DNA of 51,475 nucleotides. Source: Sedimentisphaerales bacterium. Lineage in GTDB: Bacteria; Planctomycetota; Phycisphaerae; Sedimentisphaerales; SM23-30. The position numbers and the translations under genes are program-made. This document shows positions 1-10,297 of this stretch, piece by piece (the first letter of the stretch is position 1; the number at the start of each line of letters is the position of its first letter). Under the pieces are notes generated by a model. That model did no database searches and was not told the origin of the DNA. It saw only the letters and a program-made list of their open reading frames with translations. The DNA is taken from assembly GCA_016934515.1 (NCBI GenBank), contig JAFGSR010000227.1, forward strand, positions 1 to 51,475. Reading direction: 5' to 3'.

Positions 1-489
1 GACAACCACGTTAATTCTTGGGACGTTATTATAACGATCCCGTGTCAAAAAACCCGGGAGGCTCCGGTTTCATAGTTTCTCCGTGGATAAAAATCTTAAA
101 ATCAGTGTAAATCCGTGTCTAATAAGAATTTACATCAATTCTCTCAGCTAATTCCACCGTGGCAAAAGCGCGACAGCCGCTTTTAAAAAATCGCAAATTT
201 CTGCAAAAAACCGCTAAGTTTTCCCCAACTTTCTGCAAAAACCACCCAAAAACCACCCAACTTTCGATCCTGTTTTTTGACTGAATTTCATCTTTTCTCA
301 TTTTTGGCCCACTTTTGTCGCGCTTTTGGACACGTTTTCCCGTTCATTTTCGCCCCATTAATGGATACCACGCATCGAATAATGGGTCCGATTCTGCAAC
401 ACGTAAAACAAGGACTTATGGCCCAACCGAAACCTGATTTCAATTTGAAGCTGTGAGGTACGTCGGTGCTTAGGATTTAGGATTTCTTT
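1..489. other. Intergenic region, no supported gene
   Basis: No convincing coding sequence. The 60-residue minus-strand ORF at 119-301 has no ribosome site or recognisable domain. A near-palindrome GGGACGTTAT/ATAACGATCCC lies at about 20-41 and could be an operator or weak hairpin. The stretch near 80-120, with phrases such as ATCCGTGTCTAA, resembles low-complexity intergenic repeats of planctomycete genomes; that is recollection, not something shown here. Beyond these I see nothing. Confidence 0.5.
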
Positions 490-524
490 TCAGGCTTCAG
501 GCTTCATCCTTCAGGCTTTCTTCC
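490..524 (-). repeat. GCCTGAAG-type intergenic repeat, 3' of thyA-like gene
   Basis: On the minus strand this reads GGAAGAAAGCCTGAAGGATG followed by two more GCCTGAA units. It starts immediately after the stop codon of the thymidylate synthase gene, which is read on the same strand. The same unit recurs after genes of the secretion operon at about 3.4, 5.1, 6.7 and 7.5 kb, in the same orientation relative to transcription. Confidence 0.75.
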
Positions 525-1418
525 CTACCCTTTTCCTTTGGCGTACCAGTCGGGGTCCTGAGCCAGCTTGCTCTTGGCTTCCTCGATCATCACCGTAAAA
601 GCCGGGTGATCGCTGTTCCACGATCGGCAAGCAAAATCCCCGTCCTTCATCTTCTCCAACTCAGGCTTGGCCTCGACAAAATAGCTGCCGTAAATGTGCA
701 GCGAATCACTGATATCCACATATCGTCCTACCCGCACCGGCTCGCCGATATTTTCGCTAATTCGTTCCGCCACAATCCTTTGCAGATCAGTCAACGCATA
801 AACATTCATGTACCAGGCTTTATACAAATCCCTGCTGCGCCAGTGCGAATTCATGTTCAGCACCGCCGCCCCAGCTTCATCCCGCATAATCCGAAACCAC
901 AACCGCTGCAGACAAGGCGGGTCATCGGTCGGCGGATCAGCCGTCGGCATCCAGGTAATCGCCTGAGCACGACGGGTATGGAATGTCTTACTGAGCTTCT
1001 CAACCACATATTCTATCTGATCCACCGCCGCGAAAGGCTTGGTAGCATTAGGGTTACGTAAATCCTCCACCGGGCAGTATTCAAACAGCCGCTCGTTGTA
1101 GGTGTAAGTCCATTTCCCCGCTACCGGGTCGATCCAGTGATTATGAATCCCGTTGCAGACCTCCTGACGATACGCCTCAAGCTCCTCCGGGCCGCCGGGG
1201 AAGTTCTTATGTATCCGAGGCTCGGCGAAGGGGTTTTCCACCGTTATCATCACCGTAGCGTCCCTGCTGGGCGGATCCTCCGGTTTGTCGTACTCCGTCT
1301 TGAACTCCACCCCATTTTCCCAAACCGCCAAAACCGCCTTTTCCCAGGCCTCTGGCAGGCAGCTTGCGCTCACCGATAATGTTGGAATATTGCCACTTTT
1401 TCCGCGGATTGAACTCAT
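525..1418 (-). CDS. Thymidylate synthase, methanogen-type ThyA-family protein
   Basis: Probably converts dUMP to dTMP using methylene-tetrahydrofolate, in the cytoplasm. Of 297 residues, the family-diagnostic parts are seen: RR at 149-150 before the catalytic loop, DDPPCL with candidate nucleophile Cys169, a WRSRD phosphate-binding segment near 193-197, MNVYALTDLQ (204-213) with the substrate-contacting Asn, and SLHIY (239-243) matching the H-x-Y of thymidylate synthases. The residue after Cys is Leu, not the His of bacterial ThyA, and Trp replaces the Gln before RS. This is closer to the archaeal/methanogen-type branch and related pyrimidine hydroxymethylases. The start is supported by GGAAAGGAG upstream on the minus strand. 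Family membership is firm; dTMP versus a modified pyrimidine product is less so. Confidence 0.78.
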   Translation of the reverse strand: MSSIRGKSGNIPTLSVSASCLPEAWEKAVLAVWENGVEFKTEYDKPEDPPSRDATVMITVENPFAEPRIHKNFPGGPEELEAYRQEVCNGIHNHWIDPVAGKWTYTYNERLFEYCPVEDLRNPNATKPFAAVDQIEYVVEKLSKTFHTRRAQAITWMPTADPPTDDPPCLQRLWFRIMRDEAGAAVLNMNSHWRSRDLYKAWYMNVYALTDLQRIVAERISENIGEPVRVGRYVDISDSLHIYGSYFVEAKPELEKMKDGDFACRSWNSDHPAFTVMIEEAKSKLAQDPDWYAKGKG

Positions 1419-1657: not shown

Positions 1658-3454
1658 ATGGAAGAATTTGGTGCTTATTTACTGGCGAACGACATCGTTC
1701 AGCCTGCTCAGCTCCTGCAGGTTGACAAAATCGAATCCGCCGGCACCGGGGCCATGCCCATCTATTACCGCCTGCTGAAAAGCTTCCCCGAACTGGAAGA
1801 AGTTATCTGGCGGGGACTTGCGGATTTTTTGCAACTTAAACTGCTCGATATCCATCGGCTGCAGATCGACACTTCGCTATCGCGGATCTTACCGGCCCGG
1901 CTGGCCCATGAATATTCCATCGCTCCGGTTGCCCATCGACAAAACCGAGTCGATATTGCCCTGGCGGACCCCGCTCAGTTCGATAAGTGCAGCGAATACA
2001 GCATGTTAATAAGCGAACTGCCGAACAGCAATTTCAGTGCCGGCGTTACGGTGATTCCTCACCTGGCAAAACCCAGCGATGTCGGTGAGATAATTCGTAA
2101 GGTTTACGGCATCGGGGCGGATTCAGTTCAGGAGGTGCTCGATGATCGGCCGGACGAATACGTTATCGAGGAAACCGCCGGTTACGAAAGCACTGCAGTA
2201 GTTGATCTTACCAAAGTGCAGGGCCCCGGCGAAGATGTGGCGATTATTCGTTTTGTAAATCAACTGCTGCTGGAAGCGGTCAAAATCGGGGCTTCTGATA
2301 TTCACCTGGAGCCTTTCGAAGAAATGTTACGCGTTCGTTATCGACTGGACGGGATGCTGCAGACCGAGCCGGTGCCGGAGCGCATTAAACACCTGGAAGC
2401 GGCGATAATATCGCGATTAAAAATCATGGCCAATCTGGACATTGCGGAAAAGCGCTTGCCTCAGGATGGGCAGATTCGCTTGAGTATGATGGGGAGGCCG
2501 ATTGATGTTCGAGTGTCGGTGCTGCCGACCATGTTCGGGCAGGGATTGGCGTTGCGGTTGCTGGATAAGCAGTTGACATTCCGTCAGTTAGGCAATCTGG
2601 GTATTCCCGATGATTACCTGCGGCTGTATCGGGAGGTGCTGAGGTTGTCGCACGGCGTGGTGCTGGTAACCGGTCCGACCGGCAGCGGCAAGACGACAAC
2701 GCTTTATGCTTCGCTGAATGAGCTTAACATTGCCGAGCGTAAGATTATTACGGTTGAGGATCCGATTGAGTATCAGTTGGAGGGGATTTCACAGATACAG
2801 GTCAAGCCGACTATTGGGCTGGAATTCAGTACGATATTGCGTCATATTTTGCGTCATGACCCGGATATTGTGATGATTGGTGAGATTCGGGACTTGGAAA
2901 CGGCCCGGATAGCGATTTCGGCGGCGATGACGGGTCATCTGGTATTCAGCACGTTGCATACCAATGATGCCCCGTCGGCCCCGGTGAGGCTGCTGGAGAT
3001 GGGATTGGAGCCCTATCTGGTTTCTTCGGCGTTGGAGGCGGTTATTGCCCAGCGTCTGGTGCGGATGCAGTGTAAGGGGTGCCGCGTGCCGGTTCAGGAA
3101 ACTGAGGGATTTCCGGCAGATGAATTGGAACTTATCCGTTCGGGATGTGTCTATGATAGTAAAGGGTGCCCGGTGTGCAGACATACCGGATATCAGGGCA
3201 GGACGGCGATATTCGAGATGTTCAGCCTGAACGACGAGATCAGGCAGATGATATTGAAGCGGGCCAATGCGGCGGAGATACGTCATGCGGCGACGCGGAT
3301 GGGGATGCGTACGTTGCGGCAATCGGGGTTGGAGAAGGTGAAAGCCGGGCTGAGCTCGCTTTCGGAGGTGTATCGCGTGGCACGGGAAGAGATGGTTGAT
3401 ATGCGTGGGGTAATGGGGGAGGTTAAAGAAGAAAGCCTGAAGCCTGAAGCTTGA
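1658..3454 (+). CDS. gspE: Type II secretion / type IV pilus assembly ATPase (GspE/PilB family)
   Basis: Hexameric cytoplasmic ATPase that drives pseudopilus or pilus assembly. Seen: an N-terminal MshEN-like domain (about 1-150), Walker A GPTGSGKTT (339-347), Asp box ITVEDPIEY (364-372), Walker B DIVMIGEIRD (403-412), His box STLHTND (431-437), and a zinc-binding tetracysteine with CKGC (472-475) and CPVC (504-507). The length of 598 is normal. No strong ribosome site precedes the ATG at 1658. It is first of six same-strand genes. The last nine residues, KEESLKPEA, are encoded by the intergenic repeat that starts before the stop codon, so the tail is probably acquired. Codon choice changes inside the gene: mixed C/G endings before about 2400, strongly G/T after. 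Confidence 0.93.
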   Translation: MEEFGAYLLANDIVQPAQLLQVDKIESAGTGAMPIYYRLLKSFPELEEVIWRGLADFLQLKLLDIHRLQIDTSLSRILPARLAHEYSIAPVAHRQNRVDIALADPAQFDKCSEYSMLISELPNSNFSAGVTVIPHLAKPSDVGEIIRKVYGIGADSVQEVLDDRPDEYVIEETAGYESTAVVDLTKVQGPGEDVAIIRFVNQLLLEAVKIGASDIHLEPFEEMLRVRYRLDGMLQTEPVPERIKHLEAAIISRLKIMANLDIAEKRLPQDGQIRLSMMGRPIDVRVSVLPTMFGQGLALRLLDKQLTFRQLGNLGIPDDYLRLYREVLRLSHGVVLVTGPTGSGKTTTLYASLNELNIAERKIITVEDPIEYQLEGISQIQVKPTIGLEFSTILRHILRHDPDIVMIGEIRDLETARIAISAAMTGHLVFSTLHTNDAPSAPVRLLEMGLEPYLVSSALEAVIAQRLVRMQCKGCRVPVQETEGFPADELELIRSGCVYDSKGCPVCRHTGYQGRTAIFEMFSLNDEIRQMILKRANAAEIRHAATRMGMRTLRQSGLEKVKAGLSSLSEVYRVAREEMVDMRGVMGEVKEESLKPEA

Positions 3455-3510
3455 AGCCTGAAAGAAGAAAAGAAGAAGAAAGCTTTAAGCTTGAATCCTG
3501 AAGGATAAAG
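3427..3510 (+). repeat. GCCTGAAG-type repeat overlapping the gspE stop codon
   Basis: Tandem GCCTGAAG/GCTTGAAG units flanked by GA-rich sequence (AAGAAGAAAAGAAGAAGAAAG), then a diverged second set. It begins inside the gspE reading frame and supplies its final codons and stop, then fills most of the 69-base gap to the next gene. Confidence 0.75.
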
Positions 3511-3523
3511 CAAGAAAAATTTT

Positions 3524-5095
3524 ATGCTGGGAATTGATGTAGGACAAGAAGAAATACGGGTGGTGAATCTGCGGCGGCGTGGAGGCAGTTACCATTTGCG
3601 TGCGTCTATCAAGGTGCCGGTGGGAGCAGCACAGGCAGATGATGCGTTGGAGTTGGGCAAGTTGCTGGCGCGGGCGGTAGCTGGTCAGGGGTGGAGCGGT
3701 CAAAGGGCGGTAATGACACTGGGTTGGCGGCAATCATTTGTGCGGAATTTTACGTCAGAAGTGAAATCGGGTCTGGATGTCGGCAACGGTGGTCAGATAA
3801 GTAAGGCGTTGGATTCGGCGTTGCTGGAATCGGCGCGGGAGATGATGCTGGTTCCGCAGGATCAGATGGTGATGGATATCTGGAGGAGTTCATCGGTGTC
3901 GGCCCGGAGGGAGGCGGCAGATGAAGCTCAAGCGGGATTGGGGTCGGTGCTGGTGGCGGCGGCGCGGAAAGAAGCGGTGTCTTTCCATCGTCAGTTGGCG
4001 GAGAGTTGCGGCTTGAGAGTGACGGCGTTGGAATCGCGAAGTCTGGCGGCGATTAATGGATTATTGCAGTACTGGCAGGAGTCGGTGGAGGAAAACATTG
4101 CGGTGGTTTTTATGGAAGACGACCACGCGGATGTAGCGGTGTTTGATTGCAACGGGTTGGTGGTTTTGCAAACGGTGAATGTTGATTTGGCGGAGGTAGG
4201 AGGGGAAAGGATTGTCGGAGAGTTGTTGGGGAATTTGCAGCGGATATTTAATACGAGCCGGCTGAGCGAAGGAAGTTGTTATCCGGAACGGGTATTTTTG
4301 GGAGCGGGGACGAGGGCAATGCGAGGTGTGTTGTGGGGTTTGAGCGAGGCGCTAACCGAACAAGCACAATCGTCAGTAGCAGTGACTTTGTGCAGTGACG
4401 TGGACAGCGAATGGGAAGGCATTGGAGGATTCAACAAGGAGGATGAGCCGGAGGCGGGAGAATATGTGCCGGCGACGGGAGCGGCGTTGGACGGGATGCG
4501 AATTAGTCCGGTGTGGTTTGATTTTTTTCATCCGCGTGGCGCCCGTCAGGAAAAGAAGCATGCGATTTCGTGGAAGCCATTCGTTTTGATGGCGGTGGCG
4601 GCGATGGTGATGTTTGGAGGATTTTGGCTTAATCTGGTGCAGAAGAACCAGCGGCAAATCAGGCAGTTGGAAGATGCGGTGAATCAGACGCAGCCGGAGT
4701 TATTGAAGATTGATGAGGCGCGGGCGAAATGGCTTTTGTTTCGGTCTTACCTTCCGAAGTACAGAGGAGGTAACCGACGAGCTTATCTGGAGATATTGGC
4801 GGAGATCAGCCAGGCGTGTCCGAGTACGGAAGAAGCGTATGTTACCAAGCTGGACATTTCGGATCGGGGCAGTGACCGGGTGAATTATGATATTGTGATA
4901 AGCGGGAAAGTCAGTGCAAAAGGGATACTGGATGATTTTATGAAGAAGTTGAGTGCGTCGCCGATGTTTCAGGATGTCAAGCAGGACAAGGAGTTGGCGG
5001 TGAATTTGCGAGAAGAATATTACCAGTTTAGTTTTTCGATAACCTGTAAGTTGCGTTCGGAGCAGTTAGTGGGTAAGGTGACGAGTGGTGAATAG
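3524..5095 (+). CDS. PilM/GspL-like actin-fold protein fused to a PilN-like membrane domain
   Basis: Inner-membrane platform component of a type II secretion or type IV pilus machine. The first ~320 residues look like the PilM/GspL actin-like fold: it opens MLGIDVGQEEIRVV and has an internal AVVFMEDDHADVAVFDC phosphate-binding-type strand pair. One transmembrane helix follows (about 350-370, FVLMAVAAMVMFGGFWLNL), then a coiled-coil and a periplasmic ferredoxin-like domain as in PilN/GspL C-termini. At 523 residues it therefore combines what PilM and PilN do separately in many bacteria, which is also the GspL layout. It lies 69 bases after gspE and is followed by repeats. Precise assignment as GspL or PilMN cannot be settled from sequence reading alone. 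Confidence 0.8.
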   Translation: MLGIDVGQEEIRVVNLRRRGGSYHLRASIKVPVGAAQADDALELGKLLARAVAGQGWSGQRAVMTLGWRQSFVRNFTSEVKSGLDVGNGGQISKALDSALLESAREMMLVPQDQMVMDIWRSSSVSARREAADEAQAGLGSVLVAAARKEAVSFHRQLAESCGLRVTALESRSLAAINGLLQYWQESVEENIAVVFMEDDHADVAVFDCNGLVVLQTVNVDLAEVGGERIVGELLGNLQRIFNTSRLSEGSCYPERVFLGAGTRAMRGVLWGLSEALTEQAQSSVAVTLCSDVDSEWEGIGGFNKEDEPEAGEYVPATGAALDGMRISPVWFDFFHPRGARQEKKHAISWKPFVLMAVAAMVMFGGFWLNLVQKNQRQIRQLEDAVNQTQPELLKIDEARAKWLLFRSYLPKYRGGNRRAYLEILAEISQACPSTEEAYVTKLDISDRGSDRVNYDIVISGKVSAKGILDDFMKKLSASPMFQDVKQDKELAVNLREEYYQFSFSITCKLRSEQLVGKVTSGE

Positions 5096-5097
5096 TT

Positions 5098-5180
5098 GGA
5101 AGAAAGCCTGCTCGCCGCCGCGAAGCTATGGCGTAGCGGGGAAGCCTGAAGCCTGAAGGAAGAAAAGAAGAAGAAAGAAT
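5098..5180 (+). repeat. Composite repeat (GCGAAGC/GCGTAGC module plus GCCTGAAG units)
   Basis: Starts two bases after the stop of the PilM/PilN-like gene. It contains a 39-base module (5106-5144) with arms GCGAAGC and GCGTAGC around TATG, identical base for base to 6774-6812 and one mismatch from 7513-7551. Tandem GCCTGAAG units and a GA-rich tail follow. Confidence 0.85.
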
Positions 5181-5231
5181 AAGAATAATAAATCGGATTG
5201 TTTGTTTGGAGCAATTTATTGATTAGATAAA

Positions 5232-5840
5232 ATGAATAGCAACCGGAGAAATATTATATTGTTGACGGTGGTGCTGTCGGTGGTGGCGGTATTAGTGGGA
5301 CAGCGTCTGGGGATGCGGATGCTGGATTATCTGGAAGAGCAGGAGTATCGGATAGATGAGTTGAATGCGGAGTTAAGGCAGACGTTGTCGCGGATAGAGG
5401 AAGATCATCGCTATCTGGAGCAATGGCAGGCGATAAGCGAGCCGCTGGATAAGCCGATTGAGGAGCGTCAGCAGAGATTCAATACATATCTGGAGGAGAT
5501 TGAGAAGGAAAGCGGAGTGTTTGTGACATCGCGAAGTCCGTTTAGTAAGCGAGATATGGCGGCCGATCCGGAATTCAAGCTGGTGAACTGTTCTTTAGGA
5601 ATTACGTGTGATTTGAATTCTCTGGTGGAGTTGTTAGCATTGTGGGACGCAGACGATAAGCATTTGTTTCGGGTGGAGTCAGTTTCGATAAATCCCAGGC
5701 CGTCATATTTTTTGCCGGGAGGTCGTACGCGTCATGTGTCGAAGCTGTTATCGACGACGGATTTGACGGTGGATATTACGGTGACGATACCATCGAAGGC
5801 GTCGGTTGAAAAAGCTGGGAGTCTGGAGGGGGCTTCATAA
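5232..5840 (+). CDS. PilO/GspM-like assembly platform protein
   Basis: Predicted bitopic inner-membrane protein of the secretion/pilus platform, partner of the PilN-like and PilP-like neighbours. Seen: a single N-terminal membrane helix (about 8-28, NIILLTVVLSVVAVLVG), a charged heptad-like coiled coil (about 35-70, EEQEYRIDELNAELRQTL), then a mixed alpha/beta periplasmic domain ending in a Ser/Gly-rich tail. The length of 202 is typical of PilO. Sequence identity to known PilO is not obvious by eye; position in the operon and topology carry the call. No clear Shine-Dalgarno site. Confidence 0.7.
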   Translation: MNSNRRNIILLTVVLSVVAVLVGQRLGMRMLDYLEEQEYRIDELNAELRQTLSRIEEDHRYLEQWQAISEPLDKPIEERQQRFNTYLEEIEKESGVFVTSRSPFSKRDMAADPEFKLVNCSLGITCDLNSLVELLALWDADDKHLFRVESVSINPRPSYFLPGGRTRHVSKLLSTTDLTVDITVTIPSKASVEKAGSLEGAS

Positions 5841-5929
5841 AAATGACGAATGACGAAACCAGACCCGGCTTCGCGATGGCTACGCCGCGGCAAGATGACG
5901 AATTAATGACGAATAGCGAAGTTCGAAAG
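5841..5929 (+). repeat. ATGACGAA-type repeat with an inverted-arm GCTTCGC/GCTACGC core
   Basis: Begins right after the PilO-like stop with ATGACGAATGACGAAACC, has a core GCTTCGC-GATG-GCTACGC (each arm the reverse complement of the arms in the 39-base module elsewhere), then GATGACGAATTAATGACGAA. A related ATGACGAA copy lies at 15222-15300. The repeat is in frame with the next gene, so the ORF track extends that gene through it. Confidence 0.75.
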
Positions 5930-6718
5930 ATGAATATCAAAAGAAGAAATTTAGTGGAAAAAAAGCATAGGCTAAAGTCCATCTTACAGGAGGCCAGGGA
6001 GTGTCTGGTTCGCTTACTGCTGAGTGCGACGGTTGGTTTTTTGTTAATTATGCTGTTTTGCGTCGTTGCGAGTTATGGTGCCGAAGGTGATAAGGAGGCA
6101 GTTGTAGTTAAGGAAACGAAGGCGAAAAAGGAAAAGGATTCTGTCGGAGTTGACGAAGCGAAGGTGGCGGCCCTGAAGGCGGCGATATTGAAGAAAGATA
6201 TATTTAGTCCGGCCAAGGTGACGTCAGTACCGTTGAGTGTGGATGTTAATGAGACGGAGGTAGATACGGGGCCGAAGGCATTGAAGCGGCCGTTTCGGGT
6301 GATAGGCATTCAATCGACGGAGGAGGGTCGTTTGGTGGATTTGTATTTTGAGAATCCTCCGGAAGTGGCGCAGAAGAAGGTGGGAGAAGTTATTGAAAAG
6401 ACGGTGACGATCCTGGCGATAGAAGCGACGTTTTTGCGTTGTGAATATGCGGGTCTGGAAGTGCGGATCGAGCAGGGCGAGACCAGTAACGATGCTCTGG
6501 AGCGCTTGAGGGGTCTGGAGGAGAGTAAATACGAGCTGATAGGAACGACCTTGAAAGAGGGAGGTTTTGTGGCGGATATATATTTGCCGAGGCAGGATCG
6601 GACGCGTCGGATCGAGGTGGGTGAGATTCTGGGAGAGGCGACGGTGATGAAGATCGAGAAGGGCAGAGTTACTCTGATTGATCCGGATGGTAATCAGATT
6701 ACGATTAGTAACGAGTAA
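5930..6718 (+). CDS. PilP/GspC-like periplasmic linker protein
   Basis: Probably links the inner-membrane platform to the secretin. From the chosen ATG at 5930 (MNIKRRN) it has a basic N-terminus, one membrane/signal helix (about 24-44, LLLSATVGFLLIMLFCVVAS), a Lys/Glu-rich linker, ILKKDIFSPAK (the short motif usual before PilP/GspC HR-type domains), and two successive small beta domains (about 110-180 and 190-262) of the PilP fold. The ORF track starts at 5843, but those 29 extra residues (MTNDETRPGF...) are encoded by the intergenic repeat and lie before a clean signal helix, so I reject that start. No strong ribosome site. Homology to PilP is by layout and context. Confidence 0.68.
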   Translation: MNIKRRNLVEKKHRLKSILQEARECLVRLLLSATVGFLLIMLFCVVASYGAEGDKEAVVVKETKAKKEKDSVGVDEAKVAALKAAILKKDIFSPAKVTSVPLSVDVNETEVDTGPKALKRPFRVIGIQSTEEGRLVDLYFENPPEVAQKKVGEVIEKTVTILAIEATFLRCEYAGLEVRIEQGETSNDALERLRGLEESKYELIGTTLKEGGFVADIYLPRQDRTRRIEVGEILGEATVMKIEKGRVTLIDPDGNQITISNE

Positions 6719-6812
6719 AGAAAGCCTGAAGCCTGAAGCCTGAAGGAAGAATAAGAATAAGAATAAGAAGAAAGCCTGCTCGCCGCCGCGAAGCTATGGC
6801 GTAGCGGGGAAG
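6719..6812 (+). repeat. Composite repeat after the PilP-like gene
   Basis: Three GCCTGAA units start one base after the stop codon, followed by an AAGAATAAGAATAAG stretch and then the 39-base GCGAAGC/GCGTAGC module (6774-6812), identical to the copy at 5106-5144. Confidence 0.85.
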
Positions 6813-6854
6813 GGTGAAGATAGTGAAGAACAGGAACAGGATGAAGGAATATAG

Positions 6855-7502
6855 ATGAGAATTACATCGGGAGAGGCACTGCGAAGAGCGATGTATGGGA
6901 TGGGCGAGGTAATTCTGTTGCTGTTGCTTTTGTTGTTGTTTTTGGGTTCGTGTAATTCGCCGAAGCGGGACAAGAAGATGGTGGTGCTGTCGGAGCCGGT
7001 TTTGGCTGGTCAGGATGAGGAGGTGATGATTAGCGGGCAGGTTTTGTTCGAAAAATGTTTTGCTGCGCCGGATGAATCGACGGGAGATGATGTACTGAGG
7101 GAAGTGGTGTTGACGTATGTTAATTCGGGACGAGATTTTCGCAGCCCGGCAGGTCCGGATGGATATTTGTTGCGCGTGATCCCGCTGAATCGGATGATGC
7201 GTTCAACGGAAGTGGCAGCGGATTTGACCATTGGATTGTTTGCGGCGACGGAGGACGTTTCGGAAGTATTGAAGATGCGGCCGTTGTGCTACTGGCGGAT
7301 AGGCAAGGAAGAGCTGGCGAATTACTGGGTGCCGACGAGTCTGCTGGATGGTTATTTGTTTCGGCTGGACTGGGGCGAGAGTGAAATCGGTCCGGGTGTT
7401 TACCGGATAGTAGTGAAATTTGAATACGAGGAATCGGGACGGGACAAGATATTCTGTCGTGAGATGGTGATTGAGGATCGGTACCAGGTAAATGACGAAT
7501 AG
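6855..7502 (+). CDS. Small lipoprotein of the secretion operon, function unknown
   Basis: I do not recognise this 215-residue protein. It has an N-terminal basic segment, a run of leucines (VILLLLLLLLFLG) and a lipobox LGSC with Cys33, so it should be a lipidated exported protein. The rest is predicted beta-rich with no obvious motif. AAGGA lies about seven bases before the ATG and supports the start. It sits between the PilP-like and secretin genes. A pilotin-like or secretin-accessory role would fit that position but is inference only; pilotins are usually shorter and helical. Composite repeats flank it on both sides. Confidence 0.65.
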   Translation: MRITSGEALRRAMYGMGEVILLLLLLLLFLGSCNSPKRDKKMVVLSEPVLAGQDEEVMISGQVLFEKCFAAPDESTGDDVLREVVLTYVNSGRDFRSPAGPDGYLLRVIPLNRMMRSTEVAADLTIGLFAATEDVSEVLKMRPLCYWRIGKEELANYWVPTSLLDGYLFRLDWGESEIGPGVYRIVVKFEYEESGRDKIFCREMVIEDRYQVNDE

Positions 7503-7921
7503 TAGGAAGAAAGCCTGCTCGCTGCCGCGAAGCTATGGCGTAGCGGGGAAGCCTGAAGCCTGAAGGAAGAATAAGAGGAAGAAAGCCTGCTTGCTGCCGC
7601 GAAGCGCTCCCGCCGTGCTCGCGCCCGTCGCGGTAGGTTGGCGTAGCGAGGAAGGATAAGAATAGCCACAAAAAACACAAAAATCACAAAATTATATTAA
7701 TTTGAAGTTAAGTTTACCTGTGCCAAAAATCAATATAAGCTGTTGATACAACGCTATTTATATTAAGGTAAAATAAAAATAACGCATAACAAGAAGTTGA
7801 AGAATAGTAGTGTACTAATTTACACGAAAAAACCGAATTTAATTTTTCTATTAAACAAGAATTAAGAATGAAGCAGTTAAGAATGGGGTGAGGAGAAGGC
7901 TTTTTGCCAAGGAGAGTAAAT
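7503..7921 (+). repeat. Repeat cluster plus AT-rich leader before the secretin gene
   Basis: The 419-base gap holds a one-mismatch copy of the 39-base module (7513-7551), GCCTGAAG units, and a second copy (about 7584-7653) in which about 35 bases (GCTCCCGCCGTGCTCGCGCC...) separate the GCGAAGC and GCGTAGC arms. From about 7657 the sequence turns AT-rich and probably holds the secretin promoter, though no pair of boxes stands out (TTGATA near 7743 is the best -35-like hexamer). Confidence 0.7.
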
Positions 7922-10297
7922 ATGAGTCAGAACCCGGGACAGAAGACTGTTGTTGCCAAGAGGATTCAGGAAGGTTTGCGGGGCATGAAAATCGCTGTTT
8001 TGGTGTTTGGGGTGGGATTGATTTTTTTGCCGAGGATGCTGAGTGGGCAGGAAAGTGCTGCCGAGGGTGAGGCGGCAGCGACGGTGGAGAAGAAGGTTAG
8101 CGCGACTTTGTATTACCGAGAAGTGGAACCGAAGTTGTTGTTTCCGATATTGCAGCAGATTTTTCATGTGCAATTCGAAGGAGCGGATACGGTTACCGTG
8201 CCGATTACGCTGATAAGTCCGGGCGAGAAGGAGGTGGATCTGGCGGGGATGATTCAGTTGCTGAATGAGGCGCTGAAGGGTTCGGGAAAAATAGCAGAGC
8301 TGGACGGACAGATTGTGCGGATTGTTACGTTGAAGAAGTTTGAGGACCGCAAGATAGTGCTGAACTATGCCAATCCAAAGGATGTGGTGCCGATACTGAA
8401 GCAGTTGTTTACGGCGTCGGCAGATGCGTCACCGGAAGAGAAGGCGAAAAAGGCGAGTTACATAGAAGTGCATCCGTCGATGAACGGCGTTTTGGTGCGG
8501 GCCAGCGATGAGGTATATAACGAGATAGTCAAGTACATTAAAGATACGGAGTTGGATCCGGTGCCGGTTCTGGAGCCGATACCGGGTGAAGTGGTGGAGC
8601 CGGGTCCGGCGGAAGTTATTCCGGGTGAGCCGACGGTGGAGGAGAAGAAGCCACTGCTGCGGGAGTATATATCGCTGAATTATATTGATCCGATTGAATT
8701 TAAGGGTTTGCTGGAGCAGGATGAAACGATCAAGGGGAATTTTACGTCGGCGCCGGTGCGTAACAGTTTGCTGGTGTTCAGTTATGATGCGGAAGTGTTT
8801 AAAAAGATCAAGGAAGTGAAGGCGGCGTTTGATATAGATCGCTTGGAGATTCGCTATTTGCCGCTGGCGAATGCGGATCCGGTGAAAGTGGCGGCGTTGT
8901 TGGCGGCGATATATCCGGCGGAGGCCAAGCCGGAGGAGTTGGCGGTGCCCTCTCAACTTGAGCAGGTGCGGCGTACGGGTGATAATCTGTCGCGGTATGG
9001 ATATGACGAGGTTATAGTTTCTGATTTAGCAGATGCGTTGACGGGAGTTGGCGTGCCGGAGACAAAGACGGAGGAAATGCTGAGCGGGGCGATATCGGTT
9101 TTGACGTCGGGGGAATTTGTGATTGTGCCGGATCCGGAGAGGAATGGTCTGTTGATTCGGACATATTCGCGGAATTTTCCGAAGATAATTGAGCTGATTG
9201 CGGAGTTGGATCGTCCGCGAAAGCAGGTTTTTATCGAGGCGTTTATAACGGAGGTGTCGCTGGATGATCTGACGGAGTTAGGTGTGGATTTTTCGCACAC
9301 GCAAGTTCACGGTACGGGGACGAATACGCTGAGACAAGCGTTTCCGGGGACGACAACAAATCCGGTGGGCTTTGCAAATCCGACGGCATTGAGTTATCAG
9401 TTAATCAGCGATAACTTTACGGCATTTTTGCGGGCGTTGCAGTCGCTGGGTAAGGTGGATATTATATCGAGGCCGTCGGTTACGACCAAGGATAACAAGG
9501 AGGCGATTATTGAGGTAGGAAACAAGGTGCCGATAGTGGCTAATGTTAAGGTCAGCATTGAGGGATTATCCAGCAGTACCGTGAATTATATAGATGTGTT
9601 GCTCCAGTTGAAAGTGTTACCGCATATTCATCCGGACAATTATATATCGCTGGTGATATCACAGACGATGGACGACATCAGCGCTGAGACGGTGCAGATT
9701 TCGCGAGATTTTAATCCGCAGATATTGATTAAGCGGAAAGCGACGACGGAGTTGCGGGTTAAAGACGGGCAGACGGTGTGCATTGCGGGCTTTATCAGCG
9801 ATGAGATCCAGGAGAGAGAGAATCAGGTTCCGCTGTTGGGTAGTATTCCGTTGTTGGGAGAGTTGTTTAAATATTCGGAACGTCAGCGGGTGAAGTCGGA
9901 ATTGATAATTTTTATTACGCCGCACATAATTACTTCGCCGCAGGAGATGCTGCGGATGACCAATGTGCATCGTCGTCAGAGCAAGCTGGATACGCGTGAG
10001 GGTCGTGGCGAAGTGATAGAGCCTCAGCGAGGTTTGCGTTATCCGCCGTTGCGAGATCCGCTGCCGGAGATTCCGTTGCCGGATGATTCGGCGATTGAAC
10101 TTCCGGATGCGGGCGATCTGGTTCCGAAGGCGGAAGAGCCGGGAGCTGCTGTTCCGCCGGCTCCGGCGGCCCCGCCGGCCCCGGCGGCACCAGCACCGGC
10201 CCCTGCTGCCCCAGCACCGGCTCCTGTTGCTGCCCCTGCTGCTGCTCCTGCTGCGCCTGCTGCTGCTGCGGAAAAGCCAAAAGAGCCTGCGAAGTGA
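7922..10297 (+). CDS. gspD: Type II secretion / type IV pilus secretin (GspD/PilQ family)
   Basis: Forms the outer-membrane multimeric pore. I choose the ATG at 7922 (MSQNPG) over the track's TTG at 7904 because AAGGAG lies seven bases before it; this gives 791 residues. A membrane/signal helix spans about 23-40 after a basic stretch. N-domains follow (KH-like N1/N2 segments around 60-340), then the conserved secretin core ending VPLLGSIPLLGELFKYSE and ELIIFITPHIITSP. The last ~50 residues are an Ala/Pro run ending KPKEPAK, unusual for a secretin and possibly a flexible peptidoglycan- or partner-facing tail. It is last in the operon and is followed by a hairpin terminator. Confidence 0.93.
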   Translation: MSQNPGQKTVVAKRIQEGLRGMKIAVLVFGVGLIFLPRMLSGQESAAEGEAAATVEKKVSATLYYREVEPKLLFPILQQIFHVQFEGADTVTVPITLISPGEKEVDLAGMIQLLNEALKGSGKIAELDGQIVRIVTLKKFEDRKIVLNYANPKDVVPILKQLFTASADASPEEKAKKASYIEVHPSMNGVLVRASDEVYNEIVKYIKDTELDPVPVLEPIPGEVVEPGPAEVIPGEPTVEEKKPLLREYISLNYIDPIEFKGLLEQDETIKGNFTSAPVRNSLLVFSYDAEVFKKIKEVKAAFDIDRLEIRYLPLANADPVKVAALLAAIYPAEAKPEELAVPSQLEQVRRTGDNLSRYGYDEVIVSDLADALTGVGVPETKTEEMLSGAISVLTSGEFVIVPDPERNGLLIRTYSRNFPKIIELIAELDRPRKQVFIEAFITEVSLDDLTELGVDFSHTQVHGTGTNTLRQAFPGTTTNPVGFANPTALSYQLISDNFTAFLRALQSLGKVDIISRPSVTTKDNKEAIIEVGNKVPIVANVKVSIEGLSSSTVNYIDVLLQLKVLPHIHPDNYISLVISQTMDDISAETVQISRDFNPQILIKRKATTELRVKDGQTVCIAGFISDEIQERENQVPLLGSIPLLGELFKYSERQRVKSELIIFITPHIITSPQEMLRMTNVHRRQSKLDTREGRGEVIEPQRGLRYPPLRDPLPEIPLPDDSAIELPDAGDLVPKAEEPGAAVPPAPAAPPAPAAPAPAPAAPAPAPVAAPAAAPAAPAAAAEKPKEPAK

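Follow-up and report, generated by a model that had tools for sequence, protein, structure and literature searches.

The window analysed here (51,475 nt) is one contig, C76, of the 253-contig, 4.5-Mb genome of an uncultured member of the Sedimentisphaerales (Planctomycetota), a fragmented MAG that is 88% complete. Positions 1658-10297 hold a type II secretion/type IV pilus-like operon, whose products are a GspE/PilB ATPase, a PilM/PilN-like protein, three small proteins without a Pfam match and a secretin. The closest named relatives of this GspE are found in Sedimentisphaerales MAGs of the Planctomycetota (62% identity). Repeated elements lie at the ends of several of these genes, as well as behind a thymidylate-synthase-like gene (525-1418, minus strand), as follows.

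470-524, minus strand: element behind the stop of the thymidylate-synthase-like gene, with leader GGAAGAAA, GCCTGAA/GGATGAA heptads and then AAATCCTA heptads.
3427-3463, plus strand: array at the 3′ end of gspE, with leader AAGAAGAAA and GCCTGAA/GCTTGAA heptads; it gives the in-frame stop TGA 3452-3454.
3464-3518, plus strand: GA-rich tail and degenerate second heptad block (GCTTTAA, GCTTGAA, TCCTGAA), with a 47-nt period and 2.0 copies.
5097-5185, plus strand: element behind the pilM/N-like stop TAG 5093-5095, made up of a leader, GCCTG, a palindromic module, heptads and a GA-rich tail.
5111-5141, plus strand: 31-nt palindromic module CTCGCCGCCGCGAAGCTATGGCGTAGCGGGG, flanked by GCCTG and AAGCCTGAAG.
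5841-5857, plus strand: AATGACG heptad array right behind the stop TAA 5838-5840.
6719-6769, plus strand: element behind the stop TAA 6716-6718, with an AGAAA leader, three GCCTGAA heptads and a GAATAA tail.
6779-6809, plus strand: palindromic module again, in a copy identical to that at 5111-5141.
7503-7565, plus strand: element behind the stop TAG 7500-7502, with leader GAAGAAAGCCTG, the palindromic module at 7518-7548 and heptads.
7577-7656, plus strand: second element, in tandem with that at 7503, containing a module copy at 7590-7651.
7609-7637, plus strand: palindromic piece of 29 nt, CCCGCCGTGCTCGCGCCCGTCGCGGTAGG, lying within the module loop and bordered by GCGAAGCGCT and TTGGCGTAGC.

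The original prediction, made from the window alone, had placed repeats at stop codons, oriented like the gene upstream. This holds at four true stops (525-527 on the minus strand, TAG 5093-5095, TAA 6716-6718 and TAG 7500-7502), but not near 3427, where TAA 3424-3426 is out of frame. The gspE frame (1658-3454) instead runs through GAA GAA AGC CTG AAG CCT GAA GCT and ends inside the array, giving the C-terminus EESLKPEA. TTAGGAT heptads at 470-485, the AATGACG array at 5841-5857 and the module copy at 7590-7651 had been overlooked. The longest ORF call of the next gene (5843) begins within the AATGACG array. The stops of two unrelated genes are followed by a composite element in which AATGACG heptads enclose a palindrome (CCCGGCTTYGCGATGGCTACGCCGCGGCAAG), at 5841-5893 of the window and after position 4967 of a second stretch (L142).

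The repeat unit is not the 8-base sequence first described; it is the heptad GCCTGAA, with a period of 7. GCCTGAAG occurs 11 times in the window, with 1.3 occurrences expected, and the 15-mer GCCTGAAGCCTGAAG has 61 matches on more than 25 contigs of the genome, while its reversed control has none; 11 other genera of the same family likewise yield no match to the 15-mer. Period 7 is the sole enriched class of short tandem repeat in intergenic DNA (28 arrays; 0-2 for the other periods from 4 to 13), and only 3 such arrays lie in called genes. The genome carries about 35-40 array loci in all. The arrays begin sharply at (GA)AGAAA on the 5′ side and vary on the 3′ side; AAGAAAG lies within 60 nt before the first double heptad in 27/33 arrays, where ~1.4% would be expected. 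The forward heptad contains TGA and, given that 7 mod 3 = 1, three units close all three frames; its reverse strand (TTCAGGC) is open, with no stops. Other repeated phrases stand behind the heptads in intergenic DNA of L156, L160, L171, L177 and L178, namely TAAGAATTAAGACAGCCAC, CACAGAG and CACAAAAAACAC tandems, GACAGGATTTACAGGATT and CATGAAGATCATGAAG. The period-7 arrays of this planctomycete genome also include TAACTGA/TAACTAA arrays (L193:3642-3781, L180:89-139 and L182:65-117), which belong to a family known from Beggiatoaceae and cyanobacteria.

Placement was assessed in 888 kb of genome stretches (L-numbered) that include most array-bearing contigs, with genes called by a simple hexamer model; array densities in this sample are biased, since it is enriched for array-carrying contigs. 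Of 32 arrays sampled, 27 have a called gene on their 5′ side. Of these 27, 18 (67%) have a stop on the same strand no more than 25 nt from the array; placing arrays at random in intergenic DNA gives 7.2% (P ~6e-15), with the proviso that gene ends inside arrays are partly forced by the array's own stop codons, a stop in the array defining the gene end. Between co-directional genes, all 18 arrays (18/18) are in the sense orientation; 11 of them stand behind an independent stop (11:0), mostly about 3-18 nt away from it. The distance from array to upstream stop is far below that from array to next start (Wilcoxon P = 2.5e-4), the next genes being 60-1400 nt away. Counts of short sequences at gene ends follow the same pattern: GAAAGCCTG has 21 sense copies, no antisense copy and none just before starts, the second heptad, GAATGACGAA, has 9 sense and no antisense copies, and AAATCCTAA has 7 sense copies and 1 antisense. 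Among the 279 genes of unselected contigs, no sense copy is found at gene ends.

Most copies, then, lie at a stop or within about 20 nt of one, in the sense of the upstream gene, and the reversed-pattern and random-placement controls reject a chance origin of this placement. The non-random, stop-proximal sense placement proposed for the window is therefore upheld beyond it (18/27 versus 7.2%; 18:0 in orientation), and this tabulation did not show the random distance and orientation that had been named as grounds for abandoning it. Since UGA is present in every frame of the sense strand, a copy that reaches the coding end becomes the gene's stop. Stops supplied by arrays are seen in gspE of the window and in L158, L159 (pyrB-like), L160 (rnfE-like), L162 (ispF-like), L163, L166, L168, L176 and L177, with C-terminal tails such as KKA, RKPEA and EESLKPEA; gene names beyond the Pfam-tested proteins of the window are our reading of the sequences, and rnfB, rnfE and rnfG were assigned by eye. 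Given the 11:0 orientation behind an independent stop, stop supply is not the whole cause. The rnf-like genes rnfB, rnfE and rnfG (L160:203-3514) each have a post-stop array, as do genes of the secretion operon; arrays thus cluster in operons.

The 39-base module had been reported as identical at 5106-5144 and 6774-6812, and the identity in fact extends over 5099-5144 and 6767-6812. It consists of the 31-nt REP-like palindrome CTCGCCGCCGCGAAGCTATGGCGTAGCGGGG inside a heptad (GCCTG^AAGCCTG), and excising the 31 nt restores a continuous heptad array. GCGAAGC and GCGTAGC, which had been taken for its arms, do not pair; the predicted 11-bp stem joins CCTGCTCGCCG to TGGCG(T)AGCGGG instead. Ten module copies occur in the sampled sequence, mostly in heptad contexts after genes; nine are in GCCTG contexts and one (L193) is in another heptad, CCCCTG^AACCC. 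The fourth copy in the window (7590-7651, the 7598 copy) carries the nested 29-nt piece. The same piece is found at the same AGCGCT module loop in L141 and L145, in L141 on the opposite strand relative to the module, and a third palindrome (GGATGCCCGA^TCAAG...) carries further copies in its loops. The heptads, the module and this loop piece thus form layers nested one in another, apparently with no target duplication. Sites of the 29-nt piece (CCCGCCGTGCTCGCGCCCGTCGCGGYAGG) are L141:2836 (minus), L145:9708 (minus), window 7609-7637, L169:494, L174:6497 and L176:174 (minus). Like a loop-targeting mini-element, it is found in loops of two or more other palindromic repeats, and the target is not duplicated there.

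RAYT-mobilised REPs with GTAG/CGTC tags are short imperfect extragenic hairpins close to gene ends (PMC3733652, PMC2817692), and those tagged with GTAG often provide the stop codon TAG (PMC3733652). The module is likewise a short imperfect extragenic palindrome, and the nested modules look like such REPs. However, the heptad is not palindromic, and the module, with about 10 copies, ends in CTCG...GGGG in place of the terminal tag and is absent from the flanks of the RAYT genes in this genome, the five Y1_Tnp hits having other repeats or none nearby. Mobilisation of the heptads by a RAYT/REP system was considered and rejected, as none of the five Y1_Tnp genes lies among GCCTGAA arrays or the module. 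The Y1-transposase (RAYT-type) genes in L015, L016 and L018 have distinct repeats of their own on their flanks (CCCAGGGCGTTGCCCTGGGC; AAAAAAGTACCTGACCCC; GGAAAAATGGGGTCAGG).

A role in 3′-end formation had also been suggested for the repeats, and our results do not bear it out. A terminator search of positions 3300-8000 gave no site that coincides with an element, the lone terminator-like match being inside a gene, and no T run follows the module's 11-bp stem, as it would in an intrinsic terminator (a GC-rich hairpin followed by a T run). No element has an Rfam match, and none folds significantly better than its shuffled sequences (z from -1.6 to +1.0). As these searches were null, the reading of the elements as a terminator or structured RNA was set aside.

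A second MAG of the same genus (G001), whose DNA is ~80-90% identical to that of the present genome (G000), permits a comparison of orthologous sites. Arrays are common to both at 3 loci (the L154 gene, pyrB-like and ispF-like), while at 6 loci (uvrA-like, rnfB-, rnfE- and rnfG-like, L156 and L175) the G001 orthologue has no array and other sequence in its place. At the pyrB-like locus, the common array is at the same position and the order and number of its units differ between G000 and G001 by whole heptads. At the uvrA-like locus, the G001 gene ends with GGG TAAGAATTAAG, and G000 has the same TAAGAATTAAG trailer behind the module and heptads, with a new TAG as its stop. The array-free rnfE-like gene of G001 ends AAGAAGAAATAA at the point where the G000 array starts. 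In other genera of the family, no arrays are present at the orthologous gene ends examined. Given that three arrays are common and six absent in same-genus orthologues, the family turns over; judged from these sequences, it is recent and lineage-specific, gained and lost between species. Downstream genes of the secretion operon overlap or abut in relatives, and the element at 5097-5185 parts genes that do so. The spacer at 5097-5231, which parts the pilM- and pilN-like genes, has TGAATAG on either side. This word is not claimed as a 7-nt target duplication, because splitting overlapping or abutting genes would duplicate the overlap anyway.

Taken together, we tentatively favour a reading that is quite possible, if short of probable: the arrays would be lineage-specific heptads of the STRR type, spread by AAGAAA-anchored copying and 7-nt slippage and tolerated only as a gene's end. 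A strand ending in AAGAAA (from C-terminal Lys codons or TAA+GAAA) would switch to an existing array and copy GCCTGAA units from it, after which the array would grow by 7-nt slippage. REP-like palindromes have nested into these arrays. Copies would survive only where the element acts as, or lies behind, a gene's end. The outcome would be a portable three-frame stop and spacer, for which a dedicated regulatory function is not needed. Under this mechanism, the arrays would be sense-oriented because AAGAA at gene ends is mostly on the sense strand, and stop-proximal because a sense insertion further into the gene would shorten its protein, and one closer to the following start would harm the ribosome-binding site there.

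AAGAA/GAAGA at gene ends is indeed sense-biased 3- to 9-fold (76 vs 22 in the genome itself, 28 vs 3 in relatives), and this bias could be what transmits orientation to the arrays. It lies in the final 20 nt of the coding sequence; a general enrichment of AAGAA just after stops was not seen. The anchor also predicts AAGAA/GAAGA at array-free orthologue ends, where it was found in 13/47 as compared with 28/156 background ends, a difference in the right direction and not significant (P = 0.11), so the anchoring step is one that we infer. In at least 3 of the 6 array-free same-genus orthologues (L156, rnfG and L175), there is no AAGAA at the junction. It may be objected, too, that AAGAAA is enriched simply as a part of the element.

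The constant sense orientation, kept even behind an independent stop (11:0) and mostly about 3-18 nt from it, would also be expected of a functional 3′-UTR element kept by selection because it helps translation to terminate or ribosomes to be released, has a part in protecting or processing the 3′ end of the mRNA, or keeps operon genes insulated. Two operons with arrays after several genes (the secretion operon and the rnf-like one of L160), two unrelated heptads in the same placement and 3/9 sites shared with a same-genus species speak for such a function. Nevertheless, the genome has only about 35-40 loci, 6/9 same-genus orthologues have other sequence in place of the array, the downstream extent is not conserved, and there is no terminator, unusual fold or Rfam match. 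We therefore regard this explanation as possible but rather unlikely.

The sharp 5′ edge, variable 3′ side and single orientation, together with palindromes nested precisely and without target duplication in a genome that has RAYT-type genes, are consistent with a mobilising enzyme that prefers gene ends as its target, whether RAYT-like, IS110-like or reverse-transcriptase based. A transposition target preference had been suggested at the outset and may exist, but no enzyme could be tied to the repeats: the RAYT genes adjoin other repeats, no partner protein was found, and stop codons have no DNA signature that an enzyme could read. Such targeting is, in our judgement, unlikely.

Permissive-site filtering by itself, in which insertion is random, harm removes all but the post-stop copies and orientation is a by-product, seems improbable. 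Operon spacers are short, so that any surviving insertion is necessarily near a stop, and stops in the forward orientation limit gene overlap, as MacGregor argued for TAACTGA (PMC4679880). However, random intergenic placement yields 7.2% rather than 67%, the 11:0 orientation of non-overlapping copies needs an extra cause, and next genes 60-1400 nt away leave room today. There is similarly little likelihood that heptads are written at stops, in the sense direction, by a process responsive to translation termination, or to the point at which ribosomes cease to cover the nascent transcript; R-loop or RNA-templated copying immediately downstream of the stop would be an example. An artefact of binning, assembly or gene calling, as might be suspected in a fragmented MAG (253 contigs, 88% complete) with several arrays near contig ends, is very improbable and in the main refuted, for the second MAG of the genus has three arrays at orthologous positions, gene ends match orthologues in other genera and the reversed-pattern control is zero.

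GCCTGAA belongs among repeats of known type. Like STRRs, it forms tandem 7-nt units at many unlinked intergenic loci of one genome, and its copy number changes by whole units between relatives (at one clear locus, pyrB-like). As cited in PMC4692102, the Calothrix STRR heptamers are tandem 7-nt repeats with several families per cyanobacterial genome; units and phylum differ from ours. The likeness to cyanobacterial repeats first remarked upon is one of general type (heptad STRRs, nested palindromes) and goes no further. Rehm et al. 2015 (PMC4692102) described GGGAATC and GGGGA(T/C)T heptads of Xanthomonas and Nostoc that favour sense-strand sites no more than 50 bp from a stop, sometimes overlap it and lie nearer the 5′ ORF than the next one; antisense copies also occur upstream of ORFs. 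GCCTGAA shares the intergenic heptad arrays, the sense strand and the position within 50 bp of a stop, as well as the overlap of some copies with the stop and the greater nearness to the 5′ ORF. Their heptads are G-rich and quadruplex-forming, whereas GCCTGAA has no G-run, and it differs further in its fixed AAGAAA leader, its 18:0 sense orientation between co-directional genes and its nested palindromes. The TAACTGA heptamers of Beggiatoaceae, cyanobacteria and Bacteroidetes are lineage-specific; in forward orientation they close every reading frame and can reach only a short way into ORF ends (MacGregor 2015, PMC4679880). GCCTGAA resembles them as a lineage-specific short direct repeat with forward stops in all frames and limited overlap of the upstream ORF; the units differ, however, and TAACTGA in the Beggiatoaceae genome lies mostly just upstream of starts, in contrast to GCCTGAA just after stops. 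A literature search for planctomycete heptanucleotide repeats gave no hits. The GCCTGAA family thus joins the known stop-proximal heptads; what is new is the phylum context, the stricter orientation and the nested palindromes.

Heptads recur across unrelated bacterial phyla, where an association with stop codons has been remarked upon without explanation. The GCCTGAA family is a sharp test case, being recent, lineage-specific and of a single orientation, with both empty and occupied orthologous sites and with palindromes caught inserted in heptads and in each other's loops. It also carries a warning for annotation, in that C-terminal tails like KKA, RKPEA and EESLKPEA can derive from repeats.
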